A stretch of 43,693 nucleotides of DNA, taken from positions 1-43,693 of the forward strand of contig NZ_JACJQG010000080.1 in assembly GCF_014696435.1 (NCBI RefSeq). The letters run 5' to 3'. This DNA is from Calothrix anomala FACHB-343 (GTDB lineage: Bacteria > Cyanobacteriota > Cyanobacteriia > Cyanobacteriales > Nostocaceae). Position numbers and translations under genes: made by a program. The notes beneath the pieces were generated by a model. The model worked only from the letters and a program-made list of their open reading frames with translations, searched no databases and was not told the origin of the DNA. This document shows, piece by piece, positions 28,613 through 33,927 of this stretch. Each line of letters starts with the position of its first letter. Within the stretch, counting starts at the first letter, position 1.

Positions 28613-29209
28613 ATGCCCTACGATCCGCAAAAACACCATCGTCGTTCTATTCGCTTGAAAGGGTACAATTACACTCAAACTGGTGCATATTTCATCACTA
28701 TTTGCACTAAAGGACGGCAATGTTTATTTGGTAATGTGGTTCAGGGTGAAATGCAATTAAATACTTTAGGATATATTGCCTTTAACTGTTGGCAAACAAT
28801 ACCCGATCATTTTCCTCACATTGCATTAGATACATTTATAATCATGCCTAATCATGTACATGGCATCTTAATTATTATCGATAACTCTGTTGGTGGTTTG
28901 CATTGCTATCCCTTCAATCAAAACATCGAATACAACATAGGAAAATTCGGTAAACCTTTACCTGGTTCTATTTCTACGGTTATTGGTAGCTATAAAAGCG
29001 TTGTTAGCAAACGTATTAATATAATTTGGCAGACTCACAGCCAATCAATCTGGCAACGCAATTTTTACGAACTCATTGGTAGAGAAGAAAAATCTATAAA
29101 TAACATTCGAGAATATATTGTCAATAATCCCCGGCGTTGGGCAGATGATCCAGAAAACCCGCGACATAATTCTGATATTCAAGATTATCTTTTTAATATC
29201 CCTTTTTAA
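28613..29209 (+). CDS. REP-associated tyrosine transposase (RAYT, IS200-like Y1 family)
   Basis: About 198 residues from the ATG at 28613. The frame is open further up, but that part is encoded by the repeat and is not protein-like. The N-terminus has HHRRSIRLKGYNYTQTGAYF followed by ITICTKGR, the usual RAYT opening (RRSxRLxxYDY). The HUH motif is MPNHVHGI (about residues 78-85) and the catalytic Tyr is probably in NNIREYIVNNPRRW (about 164-177). RAYTs are single-copy Y1 transposases that move or maintain palindromic REP sequences in trans. The gene is flanked by such palindromes: two on the left (28261-28281, 28513-28533) and one on the right (29269-29289). It looks intact. Confidence 0.9.
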   Translation: MPYDPQKHHRRSIRLKGYNYTQTGAYFITICTKGRQCLFGNVVQGEMQLNTLGYIAFNCWQTIPDHFPHIALDTFIIMPNHVHGILIIIDNSVGGLHCYPFNQNIEYNIGKFGKPLPGSISTVIGSYKSVVSKRINIIWQTHSQSIWQRNFYELIGREEKSINNIREYIVNNPRRWADDPENPRHNSDIQDYLFNIPF

Positions 29210-29268
29210 TTAAAAATCCTGCAATATCCCATAAATATCAATCCACATTGAGATGCATATCATCGTAG

Positions 29269-29289
29269 GGGCACGGCAATGCCATGCCC
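29269..29289. repeat. REP-like palindrome right of RAYT
   Basis: GGGCACGGCA-a-TGCCATGCCC with one mismatched pair, preceded by CGTAGG. It forms the right boundary of the RAYT unit, 60 bases after the stop. Confidence 0.8.
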
Positions 29290-29317
29290 TGAGAATAAAT
29301 ATATAAAATGCGGCGAA

Positions 29318-29653
29318 TTATGGCTTTTTATTCGCCAAATTATACTTAACCTCGATTTCAAAATTACTTTCTGCCGAACCTTCAGTTAAAAACGGAATCC
29401 CCGTTTTCCCACCCAACTTGATGCCAAATTTAACAGTTACCTCTTCTGCATCAGGTATATTCTTAAAAGCCCCGACAGCTAACTTGGCATAATTACGAAT
29501 CTTGTTCTGAAACTCATGAATATTGACTGTAGGTAAAGCATCGCGATATCCGGGTTCATCATCTTCTGGAACTTCCGCAGCTTCCTTTGATTCCAAGTAG
29601 ATTTCGTACTCTAAATCCTCATCTTTGACAATCAGCCTTTGTACTTCTGACAT
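29318..29653 (-). CDS. Trypco1-like (CU044_2847 family) small protein
   Basis: The 111-residue protein starts with a beta-hairpin (MSEVQRLIVKDEDLEYEIYL). A helix follows (about 48-68), and it ends with EEVTVKFGIKLGGKTGIPFL and ESNFEIEVKYNL (about 71-105). The pattern (E)VxxxFGIKLxxxxG...ExNFxVxxxW/Y is that of the trypsin-co-occurring domain 1 family, seen next to proteases and NTPases in predicted biological conflict systems. The gene is divergent from the caspase/nSTAND/WD40 gene with only 69 bases between the start codons, so both share a control region. A GAGG Shine-Dalgarno sequence lies before the ATG. The role is unknown; a sensor, adaptor or inhibitor of the neighbour is inferred from position. 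Confidence 0.75.
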   Translation of the reverse strand: MSEVQRLIVKDEDLEYEIYLESKEAAEVPEDDEPGYRDALPTVNIHEFQNKIRNYAKLAVGAFKNIPDAEEVTVKFGIKLGGKTGIPFLTEGSAESNFEIEVKYNLANKKP

Positions 29654-29722
29654 TTGCTTGCCTCAGTTAGTTTTTTAGTTGTTATTCTAGTAATATTACG
29701 TAAAAATGACTGCTACAGAGAT
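29654..29722. promoter_or_regulatory. Shared divergent control region of the Trypco1/caspase pair
   Basis: The 69 bases between the two start codons are AT-rich (TTTTTTAGTTGTTATTCTAG) and must hold ribosome binding sites for both genes and probably overlapping promoters. A tight divergent layout suggests balanced or linked expression. No operator palindrome is obvious. Confidence 0.45.
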
Positions 29723-32700
29723 ATGGCTCGATATGCCCTGGTAATTGGCATTGCTAAGTATGACAACTTCAACAACCTGCCAAAAGCCGTTGATGATGCG
29801 GAAAAAATCGCACAACTCCTCAGACAATACGGTCGGTTTGATATTCAGCCGTTACCTGGTAAATTAATCGAGAGTGAAAATCTCTGGCAAGTCACTGCTG
29901 ATAAAAAATTACTGGGTAAAGAACTCGGTCAAGCGGTGAGGCTGTTTTTACTGGAGAAAGCCAAAGGTAGCGAAGCGCTGATTTATTTTGCAGGACATGG
30001 ATTTGAAGCAACCAGCAACACAGGTATAACGAAGGGGTTTTTGGCTACTTCAGATTGTCATAAAGATGGGCAAAATGCGATCGCCTTTGATGACTTTAAT
30101 ACCTTAATCGCCAAATCTCAACTCAGCAGTCTGGTGGTACTGTTAGATTGCTGTTATGCTGGCTCCTTGCTAGAAAGAAGTTTCATCAGATCCAGTTTCC
30201 CAATCTTCAATAGCAAACAAGACTACTGCTTAATTACCGCCTCCCGCGCATTTGAAAGAGCTAGGGAGGATGCAGAAGGTGGGATTTTCACCAAAGCAGT
30301 CCTCAAAGGATTGTCTCAAGATAAAGCTGATGATACTACAGGGGAAGTCAACGCCAACGACTTGATGAGCTTCGTATCACGGGAACTCAAGGGAAGCGGA
30401 CAAGAAGCAATTTACATGGGTGGTGGGAGATCCATTCCTCTGGTGTTTTATCGGCCAAAGAATCCCGTCAAGTCTGGGGTGGTAAGTGATGAATGTCCCT
30501 ATCGGGGATTACAAGCTTTTGAGAAAGAACATGCCAAATTCTTTTTTGGTAGGCAGAAAGTAGTTAACTTAATTCAACAGAAACTCACGCAAGCTAACTT
30601 TATTCCCATCATTGGCGCATCGGGTAGCGGTAAATCTTCTGTAGTGTTGGCGGGTTTGATTCCCCAATTAAATGAAACTGAATGGCAAGTATTAGAACCA
30701 ATAAAACCAGGATTTGAACCTTTAATTAAGTTGAGAAGCGCTTTTCAAAGATTCTTTCCTGGTGCTAAAAATGAGAAGCAGCTTAAAGAATTGATTGAAG
30801 ATAAGCAAAATAATTTATCTGCAATTCTCGAAAATATCCCAGGTTCAGCAAAATTATTGCTTGTAGTCGATCAATTTGAAGAAGTATTTACTGGTGGTGC
30901 TAGTCCACAAGAAAAGCAAAGATTTATTCAACTGCTGACACAGGTAGTAGACATTAGCGATGGGCGGTTAGCAGTGGTAATTACCATGCGAGCAGATTTT
31001 CTCGAACCCTGTTTGCAATATGAATCCTTAACCCAGATAATTCAAGTACAGGCTGTTTATATAGGAGATTTAACTGGAGTTGATTTAAAGGCGAGCATCA
31101 CTGAACCTGCCAAACTTCAGGGTCATAGTGTTGAAGAAGCGCTACTATTAAAAATTCTCCAAGATGTGAAACAAGAACCTGGATTTTTGCCCTTATTGGA
31201 GTTTGCTTTAACTAAACTCTGGGATAAACGCGATCGCAATAAACATCAACTCACCCTAGAAGAATATGAAAAGTTGGGAGAATTAACTGGGGCGTTAAAT
31301 CTTCATGCAGAAAATGTTTATCACTACCAAGATTTTGAGGAAGAATCGCCAACTCAAGAACGCAATCAGCAAGAGAAGGAATGGATTAGGCTGATTTTTT
31401 TGCGCTTACTGCGGACAGGAGAAGGAGAAAAAGACACCCGACAGCGCCAACCAAAAGCCACAATCTTAAATATTGCAGGTAATGACCCCAATCAACAGCA
31501 ACAACTCAGGGAATTACTAGATGGGGAAGCGGGATTAGTTAAAGGACGCTTGTTAGTTACAGGGAAAGATGAAACAGGAGAAGCTTGGATTGATTTAGCC
31601 CATGAAGCTTTAATAGAAGGTTGGCAGCAGTTTGCCCAGTGGCGACAACAAGACCGAGACTTGCGGCGGTTAAGAGATAGATTAGCAGATACTCGACGGG
31701 AGTGGAAAAATAAAGGAGAGAATGATACATATTTAATGCAAGGCGGATTGCTGGCGGAAGTGAGGGATAGCTGGCAACAGTTGCAGCTTTATTTACAATC
31801 ACCCCAGAAAGATAAAGATTTTTACAAACGTAGTGATGCTTACGAAAAAGACCGCATTGCTGAACTAGAAAGGGCACTTACTGAGTCTCAATTGCGAGAA
31901 AAGGCGGTGAGGGTAGAGAATTTATTGCCCGTTCAACCCCTAGAAAGTCTAGTTTTGGCGATTCAAGCTATGGGTGAGAATCACGATAAACTACCTCAGC
32001 AGATTCTTGCACCGATTCAATACAGCTTGAGTCGAGTGACAAATAAAGCCAGAGTCTCCATTCCCTTGCTTGGGGATGAGGATGTTGTCAGGTCTGTCGC
32101 CATCAGCGGCGATGGTCAGACGATTGTCAGTGGCGGTAGTGACGGCACAGTCAGGTTGTGGGACATTCAAGGTCATCCCTTAGCTGAATTTTTCCAGAGG
32201 CATCAGGGTTCTGTCATGTCTGTAGCCATCAGCAGCGATGGTCAGACGATTGTCAGTGGCGGTAGTGACGGCACAGTCAGGTTGTGGGACATTCAAGGTC
32301 ATCCCCTGGTTGAACCCTTCAGGGGGCATAAGGGCGTTGTTGTGATGTCTGTAGCCATCAGCGCTGATGGTCAGACGATTGTCAGTGGTGGTGAAGATGG
32401 TACGGTGCGGTTGTGGAACCTCCAAGGTCTTCCCTTAGCTGCACCCTTCTGTGGCCATGAGCATAGTGTGCGCTATGGGGGTCATGTCACATCTGTCGCT
32501 ATTAGTGCGGATGGACAGACAATTGTCAGTGGTAGTAATGACAGTACAGTGCGTTTGTGGAACCTTCAAGGTCATCCCTTGGGTAAGCCTTTCTGCGGTC
32601 ATAAGGATTGGGTCTATTCTGTCGCCATTAGTGCTGATGGGCAAATGATTGTCAGTGGTGGTCGTGATGGTACGGTGCGATTGTGGAACTTTCAAGGTTA

Positions 32701-33205
32701 TCCCTTAGCTGAACCCTTTCGTGGCTATGAAGGTGGTGTTGTGTCTCTCGCCATTAGCCCAGATGGGCAGAAAATTGTTAATGGTGGAGATGATGTCACA
32801 GTGTGGTTGTGGAATCTTCAAGGTCATCCTTTGGGTGAACCTTTTCATGGTCATAAAGGTGCTGTCAATTCTGTCGCCATCAGCGCCGATGGGCAGACGA
32901 TTGTCTCTGGCGGTGATGACGGTACAGTGCGGTTGTGGAATTGCCAAGGTTTTCCTTTAGGTGAACCGTTGCGTGGTCATGAAGGTGCGGTCAATACTGT
33001 CGCCATTAGCGCTGATGGGCAGACGATTGTCTCTGGCGGTGAAGACGGTACAGTGCGGTTGTGGCGGGGTGGTTGGCGTGCATGGTTACAAGTCTGTTGC
33101 GACAGGTTGCGTTACCATCCCATCTTCACCAACCCGCCAACCGAGGAAGCAAAAGCCGCTTGCGAAGTCTGCCGCAAATATGTTTGGGACAATGAAAATT
33201 TGTAA
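29723..33205 (+). CDS. Caspase-like protease / nSTAND NTPase / WD40-repeat protein
   Basis: 1160 residues from the ATG at 29723; the frame is open to a TTG at 29654, but MARYALVIGIAKYD is the usual start of the caspase fold. Domains: a C14 caspase-like protease (1-245) with His92 in YFAGHGFE and Cys144 in LLDCCYAGS. Then an nSTAND1-type P-loop NTPase (about 258-640) introduced by YRGLQAFEKEHAKFFFGR, with Walker [10 protein letters not shown] (298-306) and Walker B LLLVVDQFEEVF (378-389). Next a helical region with LRDRLADTRREW, then eight WD40 repeats (about 786-1117), and a C-terminal tail with WLQVCCDRLRYHP and ACEVCRKYVW. All catalytic residues are present. Proteins of this kind are thought to sense a trigger with the WD40 propeller, assemble through the STAND ATPase and release the protease, causing cell death. 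The WD40 units are unusually alike, also in DNA. Confidence 0.93.
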   Translation: MARYALVIGIAKYDNFNNLPKAVDDAEKIAQLLRQYGRFDIQPLPGKLIESENLWQVTADKKLLGKELGQAVRLFLLEKAKGSEALIYFAGHGFEATSNTGITKGFLATSDCHKDGQNAIAFDDFNTLIAKSQLSSLVVLLDCCYAGSLLERSFIRSSFPIFNSKQDYCLITASRAFERAREDAEGGIFTKAVLKGLSQDKADDTTGEVNANDLMSFVSRELKGSGQEAIYMGGGRSIPLVFYRPKNPVKSGVVSDECPYRGLQAFEKEHAKFFFGRQKVVNLIQQKLTQANFIPIIGASGSGKSSVVLAGLIPQLNETEWQVLEPIKPGFEPLIKLRSAFQRFFPGAKNEKQLKELIEDKQNNLSAILENIPGSAKLLLVVDQFEEVFTGGASPQEKQRFIQLLTQVVDISDGRLAVVITMRADFLEPCLQYESLTQIIQVQAVYIGDLTGVDLKASITEPAKLQGHSVEEALLLKILQDVKQEPGFLPLLEFALTKLWDKRDRNKHQLTLEEYEKLGELTGALNLHAENVYHYQDFEEESPTQERNQQEKEWIRLIFLRLLRTGEGEKDTRQRQPKATILNIAGNDPNQQQQLRELLDGEAGLVKGRLLVTGKDETGEAWIDLAHEALIEGWQQFAQWRQQDRDLRRLRDRLADTRREWKNKGENDTYLMQGGLLAEVRDSWQQLQLYLQSPQKDKDFYKRSDAYEKDRIAELERALTESQLREKAVRVENLLPVQPLESLVLAIQAMGENHDKLPQQILAPIQYSLSRVTNKARVSIPLLGDEDVVRSVAISGDGQTIVSGGSDGTVRLWDIQGHPLAEFFQRHQGSVMSVAISSDGQTIVSGGSDGTVRLWDIQGHPLVEPFRGHKGVVVMSVAISADGQTIVSGGEDGTVRLWNLQGLPLAAPFCGHEHSVRYGGHVTSVAISADGQTIVSGSNDSTVRLWNLQGHPLGKPFCGHKDWVYSVAISADGQMIVSGGRDGTVRLWNFQGYPLAEPFRGYEGGVVSLAISPDGQKIVNGGDDVTVWLWNLQGHPLGEPFHGHKGAVNSVAISADGQTIVSGGDDGTVRLWNCQGFPLGEPLRGHEGAVNTVAISADGQTIVSGGEDGTVRLWRGGWRAWLQVCCDRLRYHPIFTNPPTEEAKAACEVCRKYVWDNENL
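32080..33075 (+). repeat. Eight near-identical WD40-coding repeats
   Basis: Units of about 126-144 bases, each ending in a form of GGTACAGTGCGGTTGTGGAA. Units 1 and 2 are practically identical for about 70 bases (about 32111-32181 and 32237-32307). Unit 4 carries a 6-residue insertion and unit 6 is the most diverged (VTVWLW). One eight-bladed or seven-bladed-plus propeller is expected. Confidence 0.9.
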
Positions 33206-33289
33206 AGGCGTAGCAATGCTGTGTTTTGAAGATAGTTTGTAGTTATTATCTCCATCATGGAGCTTCAGAACTCCAGCTTTCACTGTCAA

Positions 33290-33436
33290 AACTCGGAACT
33301 TCGTGTTCGGAACTCGGAACTTCGTGTTCGGAACTCGGAACTTCATGTTCGGAACTCGGAACTTCATGTTCGGAACTCGGAACTTTGTGTTCTGAACTCG
33401 GAACTTTGTGTTCTGAACTCGGAATTTTCGGTTCAG
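33290..33436. repeat. 21-base tandem array, seven units
   Basis: The unit AACTCGGAACTTCGTGTTCGG is repeated seven times without gaps, with small ordered changes (CGTG, CGTG, CATG, CATG, TGTG, TGTG, then a diverged last unit). Because 21 is a multiple of 3, several frames on both strands stay open (SELGTSC on plus, PSSEHEV on minus). Confidence 0.95.
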
Positions 33437-33675
33437 AAGTGCAACATCCGAGATCCAAGGGTGAATGATGGTGAAAAAAAGGCGAATATTTTCCTAAATA
33501 TCTTCTTTTCAGCAGCTTGCAAACTCAAGCTAGCACAAATATCTTTCATCGGGGCATAAAAATCTTACGCCCTCAGAGAATTTTTTACCAATGCCGAGAA
33601 TTTTTTTGGTAATTTTCTCTCAAAAAATTGGCATGATGCAAATTTAATCTGCACCGGGAAAAATAATATTGTTAT

Positions 33676-33927
33676 TCGTTGAGATGTTAAATGGGTTGGA
33701 GGAGGGCACGGCATTGCCGATGCCCCTACGGTATTATTTTATGGATGAGGAATAGTTTATCGTTGAGATGTTAAATGGGTTGGAGGAGGGCACGGCATTG
33801 CCGATGCCCCTACGGTATGATTTTACGAATGACGAATAGTTGATCGTTGAGATGTTGAATCGGTTGGGGGAGGGCACGGCATTGCCGATGCCCCTACGGT
33901 ATGATTTTACGAATGACCAATGACAAA
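33676..33927. repeat. 84-base tandem repeat, three units, each with a REP palindrome
   Basis: Units start at 33676, 33760 and 33844 with TCGTTGAGATGTT and contain GGGCACGGCATTGCCGATGC followed by CCCTACGG. The sequence is related to the right half of the 179-base repeats next to the RAYT gene (TTCGTTGAGTTGCC...GGTTGG...palindrome...CCCTACGG). Confidence 0.92.

Follow-up and report, generated by a model that had tools for sequence, protein, structure and literature searches.

A divergent Trypco1-caspase gene pair of Calothrix anomala represents a conserved, mobile two-gene module of cyanobacteria

What relation holds between a small gene and the much larger gene that it faces across a short intergenic region is the question raised by positions 29,318 to 33,205 of a 43,693-nucleotide stretch of the Calothrix anomala FACHB-343 genome (NCBI RefSeq assembly GCF_014696435.1, contig NZ_JACJQG010000080.1, forward strand), which is hereafter called the window. 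A preliminary description, made from the sequence of the window without database searches, had recognized a trypsin-co-occurring domain (Trypco1) in the small protein and caspase, P-loop NTPase and WD40 regions in the large one, and had proposed that the former controls or relays activation of the protease in a defense or cell-death module. The comparisons presented here show that the two genes are a real, conserved and mobile two-gene module, in which Trypco1 very probably partners the caspase domain.

The small protein matches the Pfam family Trypco1 (PF19493; E-value 6.3e-16; 59.2 bits against a cut-off of 24.6) and the NCBIfam model NF041216 (CU044_2847; E-value 1.6e-17; 64 bits, cut-off 23), and all its Pfam and NCBIfam matches are to Trypco1 models, not to EACC1. 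Its predicted structure consists of two strands, a disordered acidic linker that varies in length and sequence among homologs, a helix and two further strands, at low confidence (mean predicted local distance difference test, pLDDT, 54.6; alignment of 39 rows); a fold search with this model against the PDB gave no match at E <= 0.001, and the sequence profile gave, among solved structures, only hits with E-values of 0.6-0.9. In the large protein, Pfam models recognize an nSTAND1 domain and, in eight stretches, WD40 sequences, and Peptidase_C14 is matched when the first 256 residues are scanned alone (E-values in Table 1). The nSTAND1 match, with Walker A and B motifs intact, places the protein among the nSTAND1-type STAND NTPases. 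In an alignment with metacaspase-1, His92 and Cys144 fall at its SGHG and DSC motifs, which we take to hold the catalytic dyad, and both residues are invariant in all 72 paired proteins on which invariance was judged (from 99 collected rows), as are the Lys-Ser of Walker A and the Asp of Walker B. The caspase domain is confidently modeled by AlphaFold2, with the MALT1 paracaspase, the bacterial protein GSU0716 and metacaspases as its nearest solved folds, and by fold and dyad it is a C14 caspase, for which proteolytic activity is predicted. The domains and residues named in the preliminary description, as well as the spacing of 69 bases between the two starts, were thus confirmed.

The pairing itself was surveyed in 59 genomes, that of the window (G000) and 58 relatives, 37 of which carry Trypco1 at 81 places in total; the surroundings of all 80 places beyond the window's own were examined. 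With contexts assigned in the order given here, Trypco1 is head-to-head with a caspase gene at 24 of the 81 places (in 18 genomes), is followed on the same strand by a trypsin-like gene at 25, follows a SWIM zinc-finger gene at 21, and has none of these neighbors at 11; the sole doubly labeled place (L100) combines SWIM with a same-strand caspase 2.1 kb away. Among the neighbors listed, none within 3.5 kb of the 24 head-to-head places is a trypsin gene. Given that the 59 genomes contain only 53 strong caspase matches (at least 150 bits against the caspase profile, all remaining matches reaching 111 bits or less), far fewer than one chance neighbor would be expected, by a rough estimate and not a computed control. 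In a Trypco1 tree of 79 rows, the 24 caspase-paired sequences all belong to one group of 29 rows (support 95/91); because five unpaired rows are mixed into this group, the pairing label requires six changes on the tree, and two of the unpaired loci (L052 and L057) retain remnants of a caspase start, 30 to 40 residues long, at the expected place. Named genomes were scanned with a profile of paired-type Trypco1, and among the best 80 of the 226 relatives, all cyanobacteria by title, 76 loci have the gene head-to-head with a caspase; the other four are L143, L170, L198 and L221, the last being rearranged such that the caspase open reading frame (ORF) overlaps the Trypco1 match.

The pair is also carried by plasmids. 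Among five plasmid records retrieved, four contain the head-to-head pair (two from Acaryochloris and one each from Nostoc and Gloeothece) and the fifth a short lone Trypco1; three of the five are typed as conjugative, and two of these three carry the pair. The mobilizable plasmid pMB04 of Acaryochloris sp. Moss Beach (L276) has two pairs that lie in opposite orientation at a distance of about 4 kb, the second caspase being covered in part only. In the phylum at large, paired-type Trypco1 (E <= 1e-20) was detected in 30 of 292 sampled genomes, by a profile and cut-off that missed the known trypsin-type copies of G034 and G043, and a tblastn search of 50,697 phage records with the Trypco1 protein gave no match at E <= 0.01. 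Taken together, the two neighborhood surveys and the plasmids bear out the divergent pair as a conserved arrangement. As Acaryochloris and Gloeothece are unicellular, the pair extends beyond the multicellular bacteria in whose conflict systems the preliminary description had placed it.

Which part of the large protein Trypco1 is tied to can be judged from protein-distance correlations, for which 76 of the 100 collected pairs were used (24 were left out: 6 duplicates, 10 without nSTAND or with a truncated caspase, 5 with a short caspase-NTPase ORF and 3 with a partial Trypco1). The correlation is 0.92 between Trypco1 and the caspase, 0.78 between Trypco1 and the NTPase, and 0.69 between caspase and NTPase, which share a polypeptide; the first exceeded both others in 500 of 500 taxon bootstraps. 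Scanned along the large protein in sliding windows, the correlation with Trypco1 stays at 0.86-0.91 as far as residue 300, is 0.82 for residues 271-330 and lies at 0.66-0.76 from residue 301 onwards. This drop, around residues 271-360, falls at the P-loop and is read here as recombination that exchanges the NTPase and the C-terminal half, whereas Trypco1, the intergenic region and the caspase stay together. Furthermore, six pairs have a full caspase without any nSTAND match, the large proteins ending instead in pentapeptide repeats (L072), an inactive STAND (L105), GUN4 (L161), TPR (L193 and L194) or no known domain (L204). With the best co-variation and these six pairs both pointing to the caspase, this domain is very probably the partner of Trypco1; the earlier proposal of a predicted action of the small protein on the protease is supported indirectly.

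The exchange of the C-terminal half can be followed at one locus. The same left-hand genes adjoin the pair in six genomes of the window's genus, and at this syntenic site the large protein ends in WD40 repeats in G000, G005 (where the gene is cut by a contig end) and G008, and in a histidine kinase in G003, G004 and G006. Short patches aside, DNA homology to the window stops at 30663, just past the P-loop, in G004 and G006; in G003 it stops at 31635. A WD40 part is matched in 48 of the 76 paired proteins of the named loci; 15 of the 28 remaining ends were scanned, with histidine kinase in four, FGE-sulfatase and TPR in two each, GUN4, SpoIIE, nucleotide cyclase, phycobilisome-like and NfeD in one each, and no match in two. 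Other modules found in this position across the pairs include pentapeptide repeats, CHASE2 and FGE-sulfatase/C-lectin.

Where WD40 repeats form the C-terminal part, they appear to diversify. The eight 42-residue repeats of the window have a mean DNA identity of 72%. Among 188 repeats from 18 of the 76 paired proteins (those yielding at least five repeats), the ratio of nonsynonymous to synonymous substitutions (dN/dS) at positions 4, 6, 22 and 24 jointly is 1.76 for repeat pairs at least 75% identical (515 pairs) and 2.23 for those at least 85% identical (214 pairs), against 0.38 and 0.44, respectively, at the other 38 positions, with the reservation that repeat pairs are not independent and that the four positions were chosen, not blindly, by the rule of a fungal study (flanking of conserved residues) after inspection of the window's repeats by eye. 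Positions 4, 6 and 22 rank first to third in this set and position 24 lies below 1, reaching 0.92-1.47 in a wider protein set. For 127 of the 188 repeats the best match is inside the same protein; the repeats of the window are on average closer to those of another protein (0.82 versus 0.78). A single WD40 protein that lacks caspase, nSTAND and trypsin parts shows the same diversification, as do four nSTAND or trypsin proteins without the pair, so that the pattern is not specific to the Trypco1-caspase module and the comparison lacks a true negative control; according to sections of a published study, such hotspot sites are general among repetitive WD40 proteins (PMC5587647). These data support a putative diversifying binding surface and not a particular ligand.

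The explanation that we favor, with moderate confidence, is a switch resembling NOD-like receptors (NLRs) in which Trypco1 regulates the caspase. The large protein would be a STAND switch, whose C-terminal recognition module, here a WD40 propeller, would trigger ATP-dependent assembly through nSTAND1, and assembly would turn on the N-terminal caspase. Trypco1, divergently transcribed from the same short intergenic region as the caspase gene, would be the dedicated partner of the caspase domain, most likely binding it and either holding it off until assembly or recruiting it. The intergenic region, Trypco1 and the caspase would constitute a constant cassette, with everything from about the P-loop onwards exchanged by recombination. 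Phage defense or cell death is the putative function, with the chances for and against it about even. The other explanations considered below overlap one another, and their likelihoods do not sum to one.

The gains and losses of the two genes bear on the role of Trypco1. Sister genome G001 lacks the two genes and the repeat array behind them as one block: the adjoining flank pieces are 96% identical to the window, and the counterparts of window positions 29242 and 33633 are only 7 bases apart. In Tolypothrix sp. FACHB-123 (L143), Trypco1 is 98% identical and the caspase gene is gone, homology stopping at window position 29704 and resuming in the repeat array. In seven more loci (L052, L057, L088, L173, L174, L180 and L212) Trypco1 is open and the caspase gene is interrupted, truncated or nearly lost, and at L170 and L198 both genes are damaged. 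With modest weight, this pattern leans towards a restraining role for Trypco1.

Several observations weigh against the NLR-like switch. Since Trypco1 served as the query by which the named loci were detected, the asymmetry of loss is a weak and biased argument, and L161 shows the reverse, its Trypco1 being interrupted by a stop and its caspase gene open. Paired-type Trypco1 genes L059, L064 and L109 have no caspase trace beside them. In favor of the switch, Trypco1 adjoins 23 of the 26 caspases that make up the two caspase-tree groups bearing it, and of the three exceptions two stand in genomes where a paired-type Trypco1 lies at another place (L059 in G038 and L072 in G052); but the groups were defined by holding Trypco1-paired caspases, in a quick tree (50 of the 53 strong matches, short ones omitted), and the third exception, L247, comes from a genome (G054) whose sole Trypco1 belongs to the trypsin type. 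Tight linkage of the two genes contributes to the co-variation of Trypco1 with the caspase, and accordingly the correlations do not prove binding; given the poor model of Trypco1, no binding face can be named. Finally, enzymes in the C-terminal slot fit a released effector as well as they fit a sensor module and are the main ground for retaining a model of effector release.

A special case of the favored switch is a toxin-antitoxin-like pair, in which Trypco1 would inhibit an otherwise toxic caspase and activation would amount to the loss of Trypco1. The eight loci that have lost or broken the caspase and kept an open Trypco1, set against one clear reverse case, and the adjacency of Trypco1 to most caspases of the two tree groups speak for this model. 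However, the two genes are divergent and not co-transcribed, the three caspases mentioned above do without an adjacent Trypco1, other Trypco1 genes stand beside trypsin and SWIM genes, and the counts of loss come from Trypco1-biased sampling that also includes loci with both genes damaged, which makes this model possible and somewhat doubtful.

Housekeeping or developmental signaling, in response to light, nutrients or differentiation, would be a different function for the same proteins. Some pairs indeed have GUN4, phycobilisome-like, CHASE2 or histidine kinase ends. The small protein has no match among the models of PADLOC 2.0.0, and the large one matches only single-protein models (HEAT-ARM_XIII in the WD40 part, 'caspase' and, marginally, a methyltransferase; no system-level rule was applied); the six nearest flanking genes scanned (GH116, one without a hit, one with a sub-cut-off Y1_Tnp match, MacB, HlyD and OEP) include no known defense gene. 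Such a role is nevertheless unlikely given the patchy presence, plasmid carriage, absence as a block in G001 and module exchange, all of which are more typical of conflict genes.

Release of an effector, as in EACC1 systems, appears to be quite improbable. In this model the caspase would cut its own polypeptide and free the C-terminal part, with Trypco1 sensing the signal and starting the caspase. The model draws on the signaling enzymes at some C-termini (histidine kinase, SpoIIE, nucleotide cyclase) and on the combination of a constant small protein with a variable-ended caspase protein that is found, in the published description, in EACC1 systems as well. It is opposed by the preponderance of WD40 ends, with diversifying positions at the presumed binding face, which fits recognition, and by the facts that Trypco1 is not EACC1 and that the genes diverge instead of forming an operon. 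Equally improbable is a relay in which the caspase would pass on the signal by cutting Trypco1 as its substrate or recruiting it as an adaptor, as the co-variation of Trypco1 with the caspase domain and the long acidic, low-confidence linker between its other elements might suggest, given that this linker is variable in both length and sequence and any cleavage site in it is putative.

The features of the locus are collected in Table 1.

Table 1. Trypco1-caspase module and associated features, in window coordinates
Feature	Position	Strand	Remarks
Trypco1-domain protein, 111 aa, ATG start	29318..29653	-	NCBIfam CU044_2847 family
Segment missing en bloc in sister genome G001	29243..33632		both genes and repeat array
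Divergent intergenic region, 69 bp	29654..29722		between both ATGs
Palindrome GTAATATTAC	29690..29699		within the divergent intergenic region
Caspase-nSTAND1-WD40 protein, 1160 aa	29723..33205	+	ATG 29723 to stop 33205
Caspase (C14) domain, aa 3-225	29729..30397	+	PF00656, E 1.4e-18; AlphaFold2 pLDDT 87.9
His92 codon	29996-29998	+	caspase domain
Cys144 codon	30152-30154	+	caspase domain
nSTAND1 NTPase, aa 259-668	30497..31726	+	PF20703, E 2e-104
P-loop, aa 298-306	30614-30640	+	intact; Walker B = D383
WD40 repeats, 8 units of ~42 aa	32144..33100	+	variable positions 4, 6, 22
21-bp tandem repeat array	33243..33452	+	directly 3' of the large gene

An alternative, longer TTG start in the frame of the large gene would abut the Trypco1 start codon. 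The intergenic regions of the 76 named pairs are 66-79 bp long in 40 cases and 140-150 bp in 21 (61 in total), lengths that cluster among related pairs. The palindrome GTAATATTAC recurs exactly in 6 of 76 other intergenic regions (L147, L148, L149, L150, L154 and L156) and is a candidate shared operator. Beyond the 21-bp array there are three 84-bp direct repeats at 33668-33919, and DNA similar to these post-module repeats is found 3' of the gene in related strains as well; such repeats perhaps mark a boundary of exchange or loss. The gene adjoining Trypco1 (28613-29206) has a weak match to an IS200-like transposase (Y1_Tnp; 20.9 bits, below the cut-off of 23) and has a similar gene at the same place in related strains; a role in movement of the module is possible. 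Elsewhere in its genome, the window's strain has a second Trypco1-caspase pair with a pentapeptide-like end (L033, contig C97) and two further related caspase genes (L255 on C68 and L261 on C73), one of them with the other small partner described below.

The caspase family extends beyond Trypco1. Of the 53 strong matches in the 59 genomes, 24 have a head-to-head Trypco1, 16 a different small partner and 13 neither. The partner of the 16 sister caspases (L240, L249, L250, L254-L258, L262-L264, L266-L268, L270 and L271) is a divergent upstream protein of about 155-160 residues, 360-420 bp away in two cases, with a common N-terminal motif similar to TLLALLLAL and helical by eye. A second gene, encoding about 450-510 residues where complete, comes after it in 9 of the 16, and in 2 of the 16 the partner is part of a protein of about 715 residues, one of these fused forms ending in a CHAT protease domain. 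Four members of this family had no Pfam match, and two had no informative NCBIfam match. With two small families head-to-head with caspases, one slot can accommodate two or more partners.

The protease can differ as well: trypsin-nSTAND1 proteins are encoded directly after Trypco1 at L037 (7218-11453), L040 and L085, that of L037 with WD40 repeats, and represent the same architecture with the protease fold exchanged. A plug-in architecture can tentatively be proposed, in which a constant cassette reaching to the P-loop would be combined with recombined STAND halves bearing WD40, pentapeptide, histidine kinase, cyclase, SpoIIE or lectin-like ends, Trypco1 would regulate STAND-coupled proteases of either fold, trypsin or caspase, and the second small protein would occupy the same slot in the sister caspases. 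A separate observation concerns the SWIM-Trypco1 context (L061, L065, L066, L070, L076-L080, L089-L091, L094 and L107 among others): an SNF2-type helicase gene similar to that of L089 precedes the SWIM-Trypco1 genes in 15 of 21 cases, and the helicase of L089 (8252-12079) contains an intein splicing domain inside its helicase region.

Among described systems, the module belongs with the STAND-peptidase conflict systems. Kaur et al. (2020; PMC7159879) defined Trypco1 by its frequent occurrence next to the trypsin-like peptidases of VMAP systems and describe it chiefly beside trypsins, which, with the trypsin and SWIM contexts of the present survey, corrects the preliminary description. The common element is a Trypco1 beside a peptidase-bearing protein, as in the trypsin-nSTAND1-WD40 protein of L037; the window's pair differs in having a caspase, head-to-head genes and a separate Trypco1 group in the tree. 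The same article's main text gives VMAP caspases an alpha/beta-hydrolase gene, and the ternary VMAP/iSTAND systems differ from the present locus, where neither a MoxR AAA+ nor a vWA gene is found among the six nearest flanking genes scanned (small ORFs in between left aside). Two-gene EACC1-caspase systems were also described there, sometimes with nSTAND1 (Kaur et al., 2021; PMC8195603, main text). Both they and the present pair combine a small constant protein with a caspase protein of variable C-terminus; EACC1, however, is described as a one-helix membrane protein encoded by the 5' gene of an operon, whereas Trypco1 is divergent, and the large protein scores 80.5 bits, below the cut-off of 140, against the EACC1-associated caspase model. 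The relevant sections of these two articles, whose supplements may list one, contain no head-to-head Trypco1-caspase-nSTAND unit, and a full-text search with the NCBI family name of the Trypco1 protein found no paper.

More distant parallels concern the large protein. In the fungal HET-D/HET-E (NWD/HNWD) proteins, as presented in the relevant sections of PMC1805685, four codons under selection lie next to conserved residues within two loops at the top of the propeller; a STAND NTPase with repetitive WD40 units is common to both, and by the correspondence assigned in this analysis the diversified positions fall in comparable loops, the differences being the caspase effector, the nSTAND1 NTPase and the conserved partner gene here, and allorecognition as a fungal feature. 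The CARD-NLR systems, including LypABC of Caulobacter, similarly join a peptidase to a STAND/NLR ATPase and are, in the sections concerned, toxic when overproduced, with lysis as output (PMC13236601); they are tripartite with trypsin-like peptidases, and a full-text search of that article did not find the word trypco. Cyanobacterial family beta metacaspases with WD40, NACHT, pentapeptide, CHASE2, GUN4 and DUF323 add-on domains were catalogued in 2010 (PMC2853523), in sections that mention no paired small gene, Trypco1 or constant cassette. The novelty appears to lie in the two-gene cassette as a constant unit, in the co-evolution of its parts and in the half that can be exchanged.

Trypco1 takes its name from trypsin and has so far had no role assigned to it; the caspase-less allele of the L143 type, together with a sister genome (G001) that lacks both genes, makes this role directly testable in a compact unit. 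The module suggests a way in which bacteria may build a receptor repertoire, from a constant trigger and exchangeable recognition or output halves with the boundary near the P-loop. Its WD40 repeats diversify at places matching those of fungal self/non-self receptors. As a conserved, mobile and co-evolving pair with a far end exchanged between strains, the module resembles the immune receptors of animals and fungi, of which it may be a bacterial cousin.

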